From assembly GCA_902806325.1 (NCBI GenBank), contig CADCWE010000083.1, positions 1-32,906 of the forward strand: a stretch of DNA of 32,906 nt. The letters run 5' to 3'. The translations under genes and the position numbers were made by a program. This document shows positions 13,562 to 28,358 of the stretch, in pieces. How positions within the stretch are numbered: the first letter of the stretch is position 1; the number at the start of each line of letters is the position of its first letter. Under the pieces are notes generated by a model. That model searched no databases. It saw nothing but the letters and a program-made list of their open reading frames with translations, and was not told the DNA's origin. Origin of the DNA: an uncultured Thermomicrobiales bacterium (GTDB lineage Bacteria; Chloroflexota; Chloroflexia; Thermomicrobiales; UBA6265).

Positions 13562-16213
13562 ATGTCCGTTGGCGATGACGCGATCATCGGACCACAGCGC
13601 GGCGCGCCGCGGGCGCTTCTGATCGCCGCGCGATCGTCGGGGTACGAGCCGGTGGCCAGGATCCTGGCGGCGCGCGGCTACGATGTCCGGATCAGCGACG
13701 ACCCGGACGCGGTCGAGGTTGACGACCGGATGTCCGTTCCCGTGGTCGTCGTCGAGCACGCCCCCCCTGACCGCGATGCAACGACGATCTGCGCGGTTTG
13801 GCGCACCCGGCCCGGCGGGGCGGCGGCGGCGATCCTCGCCATCGTCCCCGCAGGCTCGGTCGCGGACCCGCGCGAACTCGTCGCGGCGGGCGCCACCGAC
13901 GTCCTGGTCGCGCCCCACGACGTCGCAATGCTGGAGACCCGCCTGTCGCTGATCGAGCGTCAGGCAACCCTCCGCCGCGCCCTTGTGGACGCGACCGCGC
14001 GCGCGGACCGCGAGGCCCAAAACGCGCGGCTGCTGGCGAGCGCGGCGGCCCGCCAGGTCCAAGAGCGCGATCTCCTCGATCGGGTACGGACGGCGCTGGC
14101 GCGCGAGTTGGACCTGCCGGCGCTCTACGTGACCGTGGTCGAGGCGATCGCCGCCGCGTTCGGCTACAGCCAGGTCAGCCTCTACCGCCTGCGGCGTGGC
14201 ACCTTGGTGCTCCAACACCAGGTCGGCTACCCCCAGGTGCTGGACAAGATCCCCGTCGAGCGAGGGGTGATGGGTCGCGTGGCGCGGACCGGAGAAGCGG
14301 CCCTGATCCCGGACGTCAGCACGGAGGCGTCGTTTCTCGGCGCGTTCGAGGGCATCACCTCCGAGGTCTGCGTCCCCTTCCACGACCGCGGCCGGGTCGC
14401 CGGGGTGATCAACGTCGAGACCATCGAGGGCGTCCGCTTAGGGGATCCCGATCTGCGCCTGATGACCGCGCTGAGCGAGCACGTCAGCATCGGGATGGAC
14501 CGCGCCCGGCTCCACGACCGCGTCCGCTCCAGCGAGCAGCGGCTGCATCTGGCGTTGGACGCCGCTGGCATCGGCACCTGGGACTGGCACATCCCGAGCG
14601 GCCAGGTGGCCTGGTCGCTCCAGGTCGGGCCGCTCTACGGGCTGCCGCTGGGCACGCCGGGGCTGGCGACCGAGGACTGGTTCAACCTGATCCACCCCGA
14701 GGACCGGGAGCGCGTGCGCGCGGCGGATCGCGTGCATCTCGAGCACGGCACCGATTACGAGGTCGAGTTTCGGGTGATCCGGCCGGACGGCGAACTGTGC
14801 TGGTTGGTCGGTTGGGGGCGGGCGGTCGAGCGGTCCGAGACCGGCGGGGCGATCCGCTCGGTCGGCCTGACGATGGACATTTCGGCGCGCAAACGGAGCG
14901 AAGAAGCGCGCGTGGCCTTGGAGCGGGAGCACGCGATGCGCGGCGTGGCCGAGGCGGCGCAGCGGCGGTCGGCGTTCTTGGCCGAAGCGGGGACCACGCT
15001 GTCGGGGTCGTTGGACCCGGTCGCCACGCTGGAGGCGATCGCCCGGTTGGTGGTGCCGCGGTTGGCGGACTGGTGCCTGGTCGACCTGATCCCGGACGCG
15101 GAGAGTGGGGACGAGCCGGAAGTGGTGGTCGCCCACGCCGATCCCCAGATCGAAGCCTGGCTTCGCCAAGCACGGCGGGAGCACCCGATCGATGCCGCGG
15201 CGAACGACGGCCCGGGGCACGTCCTGCGGACCGGGGTCGGCCGATTGTACCCGTCGCCGGCGGGATCGCTGTCGACGGTGATCGGCGGAGAAGAGGACGG
15301 CGAGTTCGCCTCCGGTCCGGCCGTCGGGTCGTTGCTGGCCGTGCCGCTGACCGCGCGCGGCGCGACGCTCGGCGTCCTGACGTTGGGCACGAACCGGCAA
15401 GACGGCTACGGGGCGAGCGATCTCCAACTGGCCGAAGAACTGGCCCGGCGGGCGGCCTTGGCGGCGGACAACGCCCGGCTCTACCGGTCGGCGCAGAACG
15501 CAATCCGGGATCGTGACCAGTTCCTGTCGGTGGCCGCCCACGAGTTGCGGACGCCGGTGACGACCATCGGCGGCTTCGCCGAATTGCTCGAACGGGAGAA
15601 CCGCGGCGGTCGCCTGGGCGAACGCGCGACCCGGTTCTTATCCCGGATCGGCGAGGCCAGCGAACGCCTGACCGGGCTGATCGAAGATCTGCTGGACGTG
15701 TCGCGGATCCGGCTCGGGGTGATGCCGTTGCGGCTCCAATCGGTCGATCTCGGCGTGCTGGTAGAGGCGGTGACCGAGCGATACCGGGACGAGATCGGAC
15801 CGCGCTACCGGCTGGAGGTCCTGATCGCCGGGGATTGTGCGGTCGCCGCGGACGCGGACCGGATCGAGCAGGTCCTGACCAACCTGCTGACCAACGCCGT
15901 CAAGTACAGCCCGGAGGGCGGTCCGATCGCTGTCTCGGTCGGGCCGGACGAGGCGGGGGTCCGGGTCTCGGTCGCCGACCGAGGGATCGGATTGGCGGCG
16001 GAGAACCTGGAATCGATCTTCGTCGCGTTCGGCCGGGCGCCGAACGCGGAGCGAAGCGCGGTCCAAGGACTGGGGCTAGGGCTCTCGATCTGCCGCTCGG
16101 TGGTCGAACGCCACGGCGGGCGGATATGGGCCGAAAGCGCGGGCGAACTGTTGGGGACGACCCTCCACGTCTGGCTGCCGTCCGAGCGGAATCCGGCGCC
16201 GCCTCCCCATTGA
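13562..16213 (+). CDS. Multi-domain sensor histidine kinase (pseudo-receiver, GAF, PAS, GAF, HisKA, HATPase)
   Basis: An 883-residue soluble sensor kinase with no membrane segment. Order: a receiver-like fold at about 15-140 (ALLIAARSSGYEPVARILAARGYDV) that lacks the acidic pocket and phospho-Asp (VVVVEHAPPDRD), a coiled coil, a GAF domain (about 175-320), a PAS_3-type domain (about 330-455; GTWDWHIPSGQVAWS, IHPEDRERVRAADR), a second GAF (about 475-645), HisKA with the phosphorylated His in AAHELRTPVTT (about 660), then the ATPase with NLLTNAVKYS (775), DRGIGL (805) and GLGLGLS (836). It senses cytosolic signals, probably small ligands. The ATG at 13562 is preceded by a weak GGTGGGG. No response regulator is next to it. 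A stable hairpin lies 8 nt after the stop. Confidence 0.88.
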   Translation: MSVGDDAIIGPQRGAPRALLIAARSSGYEPVARILAARGYDVRISDDPDAVEVDDRMSVPVVVVEHAPPDRDATTICAVWRTRPGGAAAAILAIVPAGSVADPRELVAAGATDVLVAPHDVAMLETRLSLIERQATLRRALVDATARADREAQNARLLASAAARQVQERDLLDRVRTALARELDLPALYVTVVEAIAAAFGYSQVSLYRLRRGTLVLQHQVGYPQVLDKIPVERGVMGRVARTGEAALIPDVSTEASFLGAFEGITSEVCVPFHDRGRVAGVINVETIEGVRLGDPDLRLMTALSEHVSIGMDRARLHDRVRSSEQRLHLALDAAGIGTWDWHIPSGQVAWSLQVGPLYGLPLGTPGLATEDWFNLIHPEDRERVRAADRVHLEHGTDYEVEFRVIRPDGELCWLVGWGRAVERSETGGAIRSVGLTMDISARKRSEEARVALEREHAMRGVAEAAQRRSAFLAEAGTTLSGSLDPVATLEAIARLVVPRLADWCLVDLIPDAESGDEPEVVVAHADPQIEAWLRQARREHPIDAAANDGPGHVLRTGVGRLYPSPAGSLSTVIGGEEDGEFASGPAVGSLLAVPLTARGATLGVLTLGTNRQDGYGASDLQLAEELARRAALAADNARLYRSAQNAIRDRDQFLSVAAHELRTPVTTIGGFAELLERENRGGRLGERATRFLSRIGEASERLTGLIEDLLDVSRIRLGVMPLRLQSVDLGVLVEAVTERYRDEIGPRYRLEVLIAGDCAVAADADRIEQVLTNLLTNAVKYSPEGGPIAVSVGPDEAGVRVSVADRGIGLAAENLESIFVAFGRAPNAERSAVQGLGLGLSICRSVVERHGGRIWAESAGELLGTTLHVWLPSERNPAPPPH

Positions 16214-23654: not shown

Positions 23655-24269
23655 GTGAGCGAGATCTTGTTCGGGCGCACGGCGATCAAGGCGCGGCAGA
23701 TCCGGCCCGGTCAGGGGTACGCGACGGAGGTCAAGTCGGGGCAATCGGTCCAAATCACCGACATGCAGGGCAAGCAGGTCGCCGACTTCGTCGCCTTCGC
23801 CAAAGAGGATCGAGGGCAGACGCTCTCGACAAGCCACACCAGGGCGGCGAACGGCTCGATCATGCTCCAAGTGGGGATGAAACTGTACACGAATCGCCGG
23901 GAGCCGATGTTCGAGCTGGTTGAGGACACGGTCGGGCGGCACGACCTGCTCTTCGCCGCCTGCGACCCGGCGCGATACCGGGAGCTGGGTCTGGACGACC
24001 ACGCCAACTGCCGCGGGGCGCTGGCCAAGGCGTTGGCCGCCCACGACATCGCCGACGACCGAATCCCGGACCCGGTCAACTGGTTCATGAACGTCGCAAT
24101 CCGACAACGAGGCGAACTCGAGGTGCGGGAACCGCTCTCGGAGAAGAACGACCAGGTCGTGCTGACGGCGCTGATGGACACCATCATCGCCGTCTCCGCC
24201 TGCCCGCAAGACCAAAACGCCACCAACGGGTTCGCCCCGTCCGACATCCTGGTGCGGGTCTACCGGTAG
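23655..24269 (+). CDS. DUF1989 / urea carboxylase-associated family protein
   Basis: A 204-residue soluble protein. Family-like segments are ARQIRPGQGYATEVKSGQSVQITDMQGKQVADFVAFA near the start, LYTNRREPMFELVEDTVGRHDLLFAACDP in the middle with candidate metal-binding residues, and NWFMNVAI near residue 143. DUF1989 proteins often sit beside urea carboxylase and amino-acid transport genes, and some are proposed to act on guanidine-linked compounds; here no such partners are visible, so the role is open. GTG at 23655 with GGAGG 8 nt upstream is well supported. Divergent from chrA. The 3' end is 33 bp from the end of the convergent small-peptide array. Confidence 0.83.
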   Translation: MSEILFGRTAIKARQIRPGQGYATEVKSGQSVQITDMQGKQVADFVAFAKEDRGQTLSTSHTRAANGSIMLQVGMKLYTNRREPMFELVEDTVGRHDLLFAACDPARYRELGLDDHANCRGALAKALAAHDIADDRIPDPVNWFMNVAIRQRGELEVREPLSEKNDQVVLTALMDTIIAVSACPQDQNATNGFAPSDILVRVYR

Positions 24270-24302: not shown

Positions 24303-24368
24303 CTAGAAGATCAGGATCAAGAGCAAGATGATCAGGATCAGCGCGACCGCGCCACCACCGATGTACAT
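24303..24368 (-). CDS. Tandem hydrophobic micropeptide 1 (21 residues)
   Basis: A 21-codon frame beginning MYIGGG, followed by 15 residues almost all Ala, Val, Leu or Ile and a final Phe before TAG: one membrane helix with no soluble part. AAGGAGG lies 8 nt before ATG, one of the best ribosome binding sites in the window. It is a paralogue of two peptides immediately upstream, with the same length, start motif and LxLIF/LLF end. Too short for gene callers. Similar architecture is known for type I toxins (Ibs-like) and for small subunits of membrane complexes, but I cannot assign it to a family. Confidence 0.7.
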   Translation of the reverse strand: MYIGGGAVALILIILLLILIF

Positions 24369-24455
24369 GTCGTCTTCCTCCTTGGTTGGGCTACCGCCCG
24401 CGTCGGAATTCGCGCGCTGACGGACCACGGGCCCGCCGTGCCCCGGCACTCGGTG

Positions 24456-24521
24456 CTAGAAGATGAGGACCAGGAGCAGGATGAGGAGCAGCAAGGTGAC
24501 CAGTCCGCCACCGATGTACAT
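24456..24521 (-). CDS. Tandem hydrophobic micropeptide 2 (21 residues)
   Basis: Same plan as its neighbours: MYIGGG, then Leu-rich helix (LVTLLLLILLLVLI) and a terminal Phe before TAG. GGGAGG stands 7 nt before ATG. The first nine codons differ from peptide 1 mostly at third positions or by conservative changes, indicating selection on the protein. It lies 87 bp upstream of peptide 1 and 82 bp downstream of peptide 3, all on the minus strand. Confidence 0.7.
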   Translation of the reverse strand: MYIGGGLVTLLLLILLLVLIF

Positions 24522-24603
24522 TCCGGTTCCTCCCGTCGCGCTGGTCGCCGCTCGCGGCGCCGTGCAATCCGGCAGCCGGCCGGTGCGGTGATGAGCCGTC
24601 GGG

Positions 24604-24669
24604 CTAGAACAGGAGGACCAACAACACGATCAGCAGAACGAGCGTCACCGCTCCAACGCCGATGTACAC
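24604..24669 (-). CDS. Tandem hydrophobic micropeptide 3 (21 residues, GTG start)
   Basis: The first in transcription order and the most diverged: (V/M)YIGVG replaces MYIGGG, then a Val/Leu helix (AVTLVLLIVLLVLL), Phe, TAG. The start is GTG with a G-run (GGGGGG) about 5-7 nt upstream. Same 22-codon length as the other two. A sigma-54-like element lies 134 bp upstream. Confidence 0.62.
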   Translation of the reverse strand: MYIGVGAVTLVLLIVLLVLLF

Positions 24670-24802: not shown

Positions 24803-24817
24803 GCAAACGTCGTGCCA
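24803..24817 (-). promoter_or_regulatory. Sigma-54-like promoter element upstream of the micropeptide array
   Basis: On the minus strand TGGCACGACGTTTGC fits the RpoN consensus TGGCACG-N4-TTGC exactly, with GG and GC dinucleotides 10 bp apart; only the following base is G instead of A/T. Predicted start is near 24791, about 120 nt before micropeptide 3. No enhancer-binding activator gene is in the window. Confidence 0.45.
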
Positions 24818-25024: not shown

Positions 25025-25066
25025 ACAAAACGCCGACAACCGCTTGCGCAGCCGTCGGCGTTTTGC
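25025..25066. terminator. Bidirectional intrinsic terminator
   Basis: CAAAACGCCGAC and GTCGGCGTTTTG form a 12-bp perfect stem over a 16-18-nt loop, with A-rich and T-rich arms (AAAA, TTTT), so it can stop RNA polymerase in both directions. It is the clearest intrinsic terminator in the window. No annotated protein gene ends near it, which implies a non-coding transcript. Confidence 0.8.
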
Positions 25067-25569: not shown

Positions 25570-26403
25570 CTACGCTCCGTCGTCCACCACCCAGAACCGC
25601 TCGGCGATGGTCCCCGCGCCGACGCGGGTCGCGTACGCCCGCATCAGCGCGGCGATCTGGCCGGGGGCACTGCCGCTGCCGACCATTCCGAACACGCTCT
25701 CCAGTTGCGACCGGTAGGCGTTGATCGCGGCCAGTTTGGCGCTCCAGGTGGCGGCAACGGCGACGCGGGCGATGGGACGGAGTGGCGTCCCGATCGCCGC
25801 CAGTCGCGTCTCGAGGGAACCAGCGACGATGGCGTAGGGCAGGTCCTCGTAGAACCAGACGGACCACCCGGACCGGGCGAGGGCCAACCCGGCGGCGGCG
25901 GCGTGCCGGTGATCGACGTGGTGGCCGACGCCGAGCGGGGCGTAGACGCGTACCCGCGGGTCCGGCGGGGTGTCGAGGCCCATGGCGACGACGACCCCAG
26001 CGGGCAGCGTCGCCTCGGCGGCAGCGGGATGGCCGAAGAGGGACGACGCATCGGTGTAGAAGCGGTCGCGGTAGATCGCGTCGGCGAACGGGAGAAAGGT
26101 CAGGCTGGTGCCAAGAAGCCCGGCGGCGGCGGTCTCCTCCTGGCGCCGGGCGGCGATCACCTCCCCGGCCGAGAGTCCCCACCCGGCGTGCATCCCTTGA
26201 GCGAACGCGGACAACGGGGACGCCGGGTCCGGTTCCGCGCCGAACACGATCGCCACTTCGGGCGCCGGCCCGGCCTCGGCGAGCAGCGCGGCCGTGCCGC
26301 CGCAGGAGAGGGCGATGTCGTCGTAGTGCGGGGAAAGGAAGCGGTGTGACGTTGGGCCGCGCAACCCTTCGGGCAGGACCGGGACGAATAGGTGGTCGGT
26401 CAC
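25570..26403 (-). CDS. PIG-L family (LmbE-like) deacetylase
   Basis: A 277-residue protein of the PIG-L/LmbE fold. The zinc-binding motif is SPHYDDIALSCGG near residue 25 (P-H-x-D-D), with the second ligand site GVGHHVDHRHAAAAG near residue 160. Members remove N-acetyl groups from sugars such as GlcNAc derivatives, including in mycothiol, bacillithiol and glycolipid pathways; the exact substrate here is unknown. GTG at 26403 overlaps the selB stop by 4 bp (GTGA), so it is translationally coupled to selB, an unusual pairing without an obvious functional link. The C-terminal region (YRSQLESVFGMVG, RVGAGTIAERFWV) is typical of a subfamily with a longer tail. Confidence 0.85.
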   Translation of the reverse strand: MTDHLFVPVLPEGLRGPTSHRFLSPHYDDIALSCGGTAALLAEAGPAPEVAIVFGAEPDPASPLSAFAQGMHAGWGLSAGEVIAARRQEETAAAGLLGTSLTFLPFADAIYRDRFYTDASSLFGHPAAAEATLPAGVVVAMGLDTPPDPRVRVYAPLGVGHHVDHRHAAAAGLALARSGWSVWFYEDLPYAIVAGSLETRLAAIGTPLRPIARVAVAATWSAKLAAINAYRSQLESVFGMVGSGSAPGQIAALMRAYATRVGAGTIAERFWVVDDGA

Positions 26404-28358
26404 GAACGGTCCTTGGGTGCGCCCGGGACCCCGGCGCCGACGCCGGCGAAGCGGACCCGGCTGTCGCCGACACGGCGGGTGATCCGGCGCTGGTCGAGGT
26501 ACTCCAGGGTCGCCTGGGCGTACTTGCGGCTGGTGGCGAAGTGGTCGCGGTACCCGGCCAAGGTCAGCTCGCCGTCCCGTTCGAGCAGGCGGAGGACCTC
26601 GCCCTCGATGGAGCGGTAGGCGGCGGCGGCGTAGACGACGCCGTCGCCGACCCGGATCACCTCGCCCAGATCTTCGAGCGCGCCGAGCGTGTCGGCGTCC
26701 AGCCCGAACTCGGCCGGGGCGGGCGGGGCGTGCGGGGCGGCTTCCAGCGCGGCCACGAACCGGTCGGCGACCGCACGCCGCGCCGGGTCGAGGGCGATCC
26801 GAAAACCCGGCAAGCGGACGGTTTGGCCGTCGTCGACAAGGACGCCGTCGACCACCGCGGCGGCCAGCGCCTCGTCGAACAGGCGGGGCGGGGGCGGCAG
26901 CTTGGACCGCCGCTTCAGTTCCTCCTTCGGCAGACCGGGGCGCAGCGGCTGGGCGGCGTGGTGGGCGGCGACGGTCTCGACCAGCCGCTCCCGGAGGCGT
27001 TCCCAGCCGGGCATGGCGTAGGCGAAATCGCCCGGCCGTGGCGCCGCGGACCCGCCGCGGCCGAGCAGGCGCGCATCGCCTTCGGCGACCAGTTGGGCCA
27101 GGGCCTCGTCGACTTGGTTGTCGGACAGCCCGGCGAAGGCGCCGCCGCGGAGGGACCGCACCTCCCGCGGACCGGCCTCCAGGGCCTGGAGCAGGATCTC
27201 GTCGGGGCTGCCGGCGGCCAGCGTTTCTAGCGCTCCCAGGACTTCGGGACGGAAGCGGCGGTGCCGGACAGGGTTCGGATCCACCACCTCGCCGCCGCCG
27301 ATGGTCACGCTCGGCGATGGGCGGCGAACGATGAAGCGGTCCCCTTTCAGCAGCGCGATCGGTTCCCGGAACCGGACCTGGACCCACCCGCTTTCGCCCG
27401 GCGGCACCGTCGCGCGGTCGAGCAACGTCAGCCGGGCCGGCAGCTCCGCCGCGCCGGAGAAGAAATCGACCGCCGCGTTCTGCTCCAAAGTCAACGGGGA
27501 ATCCTCCAGCAGGCGCAACCGGACGTCGATCCGCTGCGACGGCGCCAGCAGGCCGGGCGGGGCGAGGACGTCGCCACGCCGGAGGTCCTCGACCGCGACG
27601 CCGGAGAGGTTTACCGCGACCCGGCTGCCGGGCAGGGCGTTGTCCAGTTTGGCGAGGTGGGACTGCAACCCCCGGACGCGGGTCGTCAGGCCGCGCGGGA
27701 ACACCCGCAACTCCTGACCCAGCGCCAGCTCCCCCCCGAGCAAGGTGCCGGTGACGACGGTGCCGAAGCCGGGGACCGTAAAGACGCGGTCCACCGGCAG
27801 CCGGGGCCGGGCGCCGCTGGCGCGCGGCGGCACCGCCGCCAGCGCGGCGTCGAGCGCCGCCTTCAGCTCCGGCAACCCGCGGCCGGTGACGGCGGACACG
27901 GGCACGATCGGGGCGGCGGCGAGGACGGTGCCGGCGACGCGCTCCCGCGTCTCTTCGGACACCAGGTCCAGCCAGTCGGCGTCGACGGCGTCGGTCTTGG
28001 TCAACACGATCAGGCCGCGCTCGATCTGGAGCAAATCCAGGATCGCCAGGTGCTCGGCGGTTTGGGGCATCGGGCCTTCGTCGGCGGCGACGATCAAGAG
28101 CGCGGCGTCGATCCCCCCGACCCCGGCCAGCATGTTTTTGATGAACCGCTCGTGGCCGGGTACGTCGACCACGCTGACGGCGCGCCCGGACGGCAGCGAC
28201 AGCCAGGCGAAGCCGAGGTCGATCGTCATCGCCCGCGCCTTCTCCTCGGCCAGCCGATCGGGATCGATCCCGGTCAGGGCTTTGACCAGGGTCGACTTGC
28301 CGTGGTCGACGTGCCCGGCGGTGCCGACGACGAACGGTTGGGGCGGGGATGGGGTCAC
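26400..28358 (-). CDS. selB: Selenocysteine-specific translation elongation factor SelB
   Basis: A 652-residue GTPase that delivers Sec-tRNA to UGA codons in selenoprotein mRNA. G1 is GTAGHVDHGKSTLVKALTG (about residues 12-30), followed by RAMTIDLGFAW, DVPGHERFIKNML (G3) and LTKTD (G4), the SelB variant of NKxD. Domains II and III follow (RVFTVPGFGTVVTGTLLGGEL), then four winged-helix units that bind the SECIS element; the last one contains DGELTLAGYRDHFATSRKYAQATLEYLDQ, with the SelB signature SRKYAxxLLEYLD. GTG at 28358 is chosen because the GTPase domain begins directly after. No selA, selD or tRNA-Sec is seen in the window. It sits 68 bp behind the ThuA-like gene and overlaps the PIG-L gene by 4 bp. 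Confidence 0.95.
   Translation of the reverse strand: MTPSPPQPFVVGTAGHVDHGKSTLVKALTGIDPDRLAEEKARAMTIDLGFAWLSLPSGRAVSVVDVPGHERFIKNMLAGVGGIDAALLIVAADEGPMPQTAEHLAILDLLQIERGLIVLTKTDAVDADWLDLVSEETRERVAGTVLAAAPIVPVSAVTGRGLPELKAALDAALAAVPPRASGARPRLPVDRVFTVPGFGTVVTGTLLGGELALGQELRVFPRGLTTRVRGLQSHLAKLDNALPGSRVAVNLSGVAVEDLRRGDVLAPPGLLAPSQRIDVRLRLLEDSPLTLEQNAAVDFFSGAAELPARLTLLDRATVPPGESGWVQVRFREPIALLKGDRFIVRRPSPSVTIGGGEVVDPNPVRHRRFRPEVLGALETLAAGSPDEILLQALEAGPREVRSLRGGAFAGLSDNQVDEALAQLVAEGDARLLGRGGSAAPRPGDFAYAMPGWERLRERLVETVAAHHAAQPLRPGLPKEELKRRSKLPPPPRLFDEALAAAVVDGVLVDDGQTVRLPGFRIALDPARRAVADRFVAALEAAPHAPPAPAEFGLDADTLGALEDLGEVIRVGDGVVYAAAAYRSIEGEVLRLLERDGELTLAGYRDHFATSRKYAQATLEYLDQRRITRRVGDSRVRFAGVGAGVPGAPKDRS

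Follow-up and report, generated by a model that had tools for sequence, protein, structure and literature searches.

The 32,906-nucleotide contig CADCWE010000083.1 (assembly GCA_902806325.1) of an uncultured Thermomicrobiales bacterium (Chloroflexota), analysed here at its full length and referred to as the window, carries on its minus strand an array of three tandem paralogous frames of 21 codons, which a sequence-only reading of the same DNA had proposed to encode membrane micropeptides. All three frames were found where that reading had placed them. The first micropeptide gene of the array is of the V-type and begins with GTG (VYIGVGAVTLVLLIVLLVLLF; 24604..24669), and it is followed by two copies of the M-type with ATG starts (MYIGGGLVTLLLLILLLVLIF, 24456..24521; MYIGGGAVALILIILLLILIF, 24303..24368). 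Each has its own purine-rich ribosome binding site, as had been claimed (GGGAGGA at 24528-24534 for the second copy and AAGGAGGA at 24376-24383 for the third), that of the GTG copy being less clean, and the common start pattern and the terminal Phe-TAG are confirmed for all three. The products are uncharged hydrophobic runs of 21 amino acids, supporting the predicted single span per peptide.

The starts of successive copies lie 148 and 153 bp apart, and the DNA repeated between copies is exactly the 66-nt frame (73-77% identity), with no repeat outside it. The earlier claim that these are real proteins whose amino-acid pattern has been kept is borne out both by the pairwise ratios of nonsynonymous to synonymous differences (pN/pS) among the three copies (0.30, 0.39 and 0.51) and by the members of the wider family, which stop at 19-26 amino acids. 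The family pattern described below has two exact matches in the window versus none in 100 shuffles, and no copies beyond these three were found in the 4.17-Mb genome. The three frames are genes. A DUF1989 gene on the plus strand (23655..24269; Pfam PF09347, E 4.7e-52) stands tail to tail with the array, outside the operon, and is a syntenic neighbour in the same orientation in five relatives. Because of this arrangement nothing is read downstream on the strand of the array, which is thus not the leader of another gene.

A family of micropeptides in several phyla

A single 21-mer query retrieves relatives within the same family and order. With a 17-row profile, believable matches were obtained in 15 of the 61 Thermomicrobiales genomes (by named hits), in line with the expectation that the frames would be conserved in relatives; there were none in the rest of the class, and a sample of 400 genomes from the phylum added two. 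We then used a DNA pattern consisting of ATG-Tyr-Ile-Gly-Gly-Gly and a T at the second base of the following hydrophobic codons, which retrieved 118 instances in 96 bacterial stretches of the Genome Taxonomy Database (GTDB) and 21 viral-contig stretches. All of them terminate at 19-26 amino acids (21 in 43 instances, 23 in 34, 24 in 20, 19 in 14 and other lengths in 7) and, as no stop was fixed in the pattern, this is a protein family and not chance. A recognisable Shine-Dalgarno sequence precedes most instances. The family-wide pN/pS of 0.29-0.41 is biased downwards by the choice of hits through their amino-acid similarity, and the case for genes therefore rests on the position of the stop, the conservation footprint and the promoter.

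Several variants can be told apart. Peptides of 21 residues without charged residues occur in Chloroflexota, Thermoleophilia and some Frankiales, those of 22-24 residues with an Arg-Arg-type end in Acidimicrobiia, other actinobacteria and phages, those of 19-20 residues in Rhodoferax and Hydrogenophaga, and those of 24 residues ending in LRIL or LRVL in Acetobacteraceae. The window array comprises one V-type (Y-[IL]-G-V-G) and two M-type copies, and the order of V-type first and M-type second recurs in three genomes (G010, G015 and G058) from two genera besides that of the window; in G012 the first copy seems degenerate. Since 23 of 30 genomes from other phyla hold a single copy, tandem duplication is not a defining trait of the family. 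One candidate member (L012) was a false positive, being the start of a larger protein.

The family is apparently undescribed, as the sequence-only reading had suspected. No model in Pfam, NCBIfam or PHROGs takes it in, save for one borderline score to DUF3309, no mention of 'MYIGGG' was found in the literature, and tblastn against annotated phage and plasmid collections gave no match, although low-complexity filtering may hide some. DUF3309 proteins (PF11752; about 50 amino acids) are likewise small and hydrophobic, and one Chloroflexi micropeptide variant reaches 22.8 bits against the DUF3309 cut-off of 22.3 bits, matching over the C-terminal half (the second helix). However, in DUF3309 proteins a WPYSRxWG loop, invariant in those of the order, connects two helices, whereas the micropeptides have neither this motif nor the first helix. 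The window copy does not match DUF3309 even at E 10 and the profile comparison is weak (probability 39%), so membership was rejected, although the micropeptides may be distantly related to the second helix of DUF3309. A DUF3309 gene does lie directly 5' of the micropeptide gene in G029; locus L015 (1214-1567), in a genome without detected rpoN, shows this arrangement, with a DUF3309 gene directly followed by a 23-residue micropeptide (MSIYIGGGFLTLILIILLILILL). The micropeptide variants ending in Arg-Arg share a Gly-Gly, a hydrophobic span and a basic end with GG_III-CTERM (NF041738), but that model describes a tail domain, while the micropeptides have no protein in front of them, and with scores of 12.9 bits for the window copy and at most 20.0 bits for the variants, below the cut-off of 22 bits, they were not assigned to it.

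A predicted sigma-54 promoter and other genes behind such sites

A predicted sigma-54 (-24/-12) promoter (TGGCACGACGTTTGC; 24803..24817, minus strand) lies 134-148 bp before the first frame, where the upstream regions display TGGCAC-N5-TTGC, the sigma-54 consensus. In a weight-matrix scan of 121 regions upstream of micropeptide genes, the window site had the top score of 18.4 bits, tied with three relatives, compared to a shuffle median of 3.4 bits, and none of 50 shuffles reached it. All of the 12 top-ranking sites (10.5-18.4 bits, with shuffle medians near 3) come from Thermomicrobiales and stand exclusively ahead of the gene that opens an array, whereas downstream copies and members from other phyla score near background. 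In G005 a 17.2-bit site precedes a PRC-like gene and the micropeptide gene, 74 bp after it, is cotranscribed. Across rpoN-bearing genomes, 13 of 15 transcription units have a sigma-54 site. Among four array loci the block GGTGGCAY-N5-[TG]TGCG is kept while the upstream 160 bp are otherwise only 27-41% identical between genera, compared to 65-82% for the frames and 29-43% for the spacers. Together these features suggest that the array is one operon behind a canonical, predicted sigma-54 promoter.

The genome also encodes the proteins such a promoter would need, with one rpoN (Sigma54_DBD, E 2.0e-36) and one convincing activator, a 462-residue receiver-AAA-helix-turn-helix protein (Sigma54_activat, E 9.3e-72). 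We detected rpoN in 14 of the 15 micropeptide genomes (G011 having only a weak partial match) versus 23 of the 46 others (Fisher p 0.002, uncorrected for kinship or completeness). The exception is G029, the genome in which the micropeptide gene sits behind a DUF3309 gene, where neither rpoN nor a good site was detected. Sigma-54 is present in only some Chloroflexi and Actinobacteria lack it (PMC3162934), a distribution that agrees with our promoter scan.

The exact pattern TGGCACG-N4-TTGC was scanned in 11 genomes, with genes called by a simple codon-position caller. Of 66 exact sites, the window site among them, 61 do not fall within a called gene and 43 are followed at 10-200 bp by a start on the same strand, versus 6 and 2, respectively, for 30 examined sites of a reversed control pattern. 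The 43 downstream genes include DUF2171 (5), Transgly_assoc (5), receiver domains (4) and PRC (3), with one each of Mn-catalase, ChaB, DUF2382, DUF4383, DUF4397, CBS, SDR and rpoN itself. In the genome of the window the sites precede genes for a GlsB-like protein, a Gsp39-like SDR, a small protein followed by a bacilliredoxin, and a DUF4397 protein, as well as the micropeptide array. From the known roles of these families we read the genes as a general-stress set, which suggests that Thermomicrobiales may run a general stress response on sigma-54. Loci with sites before GlsB-like, DUF2171, PRC, Mn-catalase, ChaB and rpoN genes include L163, L179, L192, L207 and L219.

In other phyla the micropeptide genes keep similar company. 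At about 21 of the 96 bacterial loci (18 by Pfam) the immediate neighbour is a CsbD gene in the same orientation, downstream of the micropeptide in Acidimicrobiaceae, Planctomycetaceae and other Actinomycetota and upstream of it in Dehalococcoidia. DUF6458-like genes precede the micropeptide gene in Acidimicrobiaceae, DUF6458 genes adjoin it in Thermoleophilia and PRC genes adjoin it in Rhodoferax; DUF3309 genes are likewise among its neighbours in other phyla. Among the genes under direct general-stress control in Sphingopyxis is CsbD (PMC7083833), which is also a stress factor in group B Streptococcus (PMC10294668). CsbD, GlsB/YeaQ (Transgly_assoc), DUF6458 and PRC/DUF2171 proteins are all larger than the micropeptides and have no sequence relation to them; what is held in common is the operon (CsbD, DUF6458-like, PRC) or the type of sigma-54 promoter (GlsB, PRC, DUF2171). 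Upstream of the micropeptide, three Rhodoferax loci (L058, L067, L074) share sequence around GGGCACAGACGGCG and TACACCCTCA that may be a regulatory element of another kind, and genes for DUF6766-like small membrane proteins lie near the micropeptide at L033 (a Chloroflexi metagenome-assembled genome, by eye) and L129 (a viral contig).

A proposed stress role and its alternatives

Comparison thus supplies a gene family, its predicted promoter and operon layout, and the company of its putative regulon. Our preferred reading, which we regard as probable, is that these are general-stress-induced single-span membrane micropeptides that in this lineage would be expressed from a sigma-54 operon. The stress part of this reading draws on the agreement of two largely independent lines, the promoter in Chloroflexota and the operon partners elsewhere. 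The three frames would form one operon of single-span peptides of 19-26 residues, each with a MYIGGG start followed by approximately 13-18 hydrophobic residues, which sigma-54 RNA polymerase would switch on as part of a general-stress regulon, presumably via the single convincing NtrC-like activator of the genome. Under stress, several paralogous copies would be made and inserted into the cytoplasmic membrane, where they may change the state of the membrane or the behaviour of a membrane partner. We infer stress induction, membrane insertion and a protective or modulatory action.

A broader proposition, which we consider as likely as not, is that Thermomicrobiales rely for their general stress response on sigma-54 and one NtrC-like activator instead of sigma-B or EcfG, and that in Chloroflexota, Actinomycetota, Planctomycetes and Proteobacteria the general stress response has the MYIGGG micropeptides as a conserved membrane component, which phages have captured as well. 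With members of approximately 20 residues in four or more bacterial phyla, the family has been missed by the family databases and is cheap to test directly. Its promoter context suggests a general stress response under sigma-54, of which no description was found for this group in the open papers searched; if true, this would cross the usual division between sigma-54, with its specialised functions, and the stress factors of sigma-70 type.

Several observations weigh against the preferred reading. Only 15 of the 61 genomes of the order hold the family, which is therefore dispensable, and among the 15 transcription units of rpoN-bearing genomes there are two, L008 in G012 and L017 in G010, for which no good site was found. 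The adjacency to CsbD comes mostly from Acidimicrobiaceae, whose loci are not independent of each other, and a search for sigma-B, EcfG and sigma-70 consensus sequences upstream of the members from other phyla gave no clear signal.

The sequence-only reading had compared the peptides to Ibs-type toxins while seeing no antisense RNA. Its view of the frames as real, paralogous, single-span and apparently undescribed stands, but the resemblance to Ibs does not extend beyond size and hydrophobicity, and an Ibs-type toxin interpretation is not supported. That reading had noticed neither the sigma-54 promoter nor the setting among putative stress-regulon genes. In E. coli, the type I toxins Ibs (19 amino acids) and ShoB (26 amino acids) also have about 20 residues and one hydrophobic helix and are sometimes multicopy (PMC8309996). 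The micropeptides differ from them in sharing no motif, in their conserved YIGGG head, in the sigma-54 promoter and stress-gene company, and in being mostly single copy outside Thermomicrobiales. The absence of an evident antisense RNA agrees with our searches, as no Rfam antisense RNA family matches at the array and no sigma-70-like promoter was found on either strand of the region, while the conservation among paralogues and orthologues is confined to the frames and the sigma-54 site. It might still be supposed that the peptides are stress-induced, membrane-depolarising stasis peptides similar to TisB or IbsC, restrained by a tight sigma-54 promoter or by an unrecognised antisense RNA. Their size, single hydrophobic span and tandem copies would agree with this, and since IbsC toxicity requires only about 15 residues, 10 of them hydrophobic (PMC8309996), the micropeptides might be toxic if overproduced. 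We nevertheless consider such a function unlikely, because no Rfam antisense family and no sigma-70-like promoter were found and conservation is limited to the frames; that genomes of other phyla mostly hold one copy, and that the operon partners are stress-protection genes, also speaks against it.

Slightly more doubtful is the idea that the peptides are dedicated to a single membrane enzyme or transporter as its small subunits or regulators, comparable to CydX, KdpF or AcrZ, and would be stress-induced because that partner is. Many proven bacterial micropeptides do act in this way on membrane partners, and the strict conservation of the YIGGG head points to a specific contact, but no single membrane enzyme or transporter recurs nearby, the recurrent neighbours being CsbD, DUF1989, DUF6458 and PRC genes.

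That the gene is a phage lysis helper (a small holin-like peptide) retained by bacteria seems very improbable. It does occur in 21 viral stretches, in several of them near an endolysin gene, with five neighbouring genes matching Amidase_2; however, other viral copies lie near terminase, DNA polymerase or thymidylate synthase genes, and the bacterial copies occur in stable chromosomal synteny and in a stress context. Viral or prophage-like copies near endolysin or amidase genes were seen in five viral contigs (L128, L131, L133, L142, L147) and at L089, and a lysis role of the viral copies is a lead only. Leader peptides (attenuators) or chance open frames, which the very short frames with no annotated gene behind them might bring to mind, are scarcely credible given that no same-strand gene lies between the array and the convergent DUF1989 gene and that peptides from different phyla agree in length, motif and stop, the stops at 19-26 amino acids already contradicting this explanation.

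Other features of the window

Upstream of the array, in conserved synteny, lies selB, encoding the selenocysteine elongation factor (26400-28358, minus strand); no tRNA-Sec was called in the window. A tRNA-Arg reported by ARAGORN at 14938-15030 (plus strand), within a long open frame, is not supported by Rfam and is probably false. A hairpin-forming stretch (CCGACGGCTGCGCAAGCGGTTGTCGG; 25033-25058, minus strand) followed by a T-rich tail is also kept upstream of the micropeptides in G010 and G012; it may serve to terminate the preceding gene, though even its loop is conserved.
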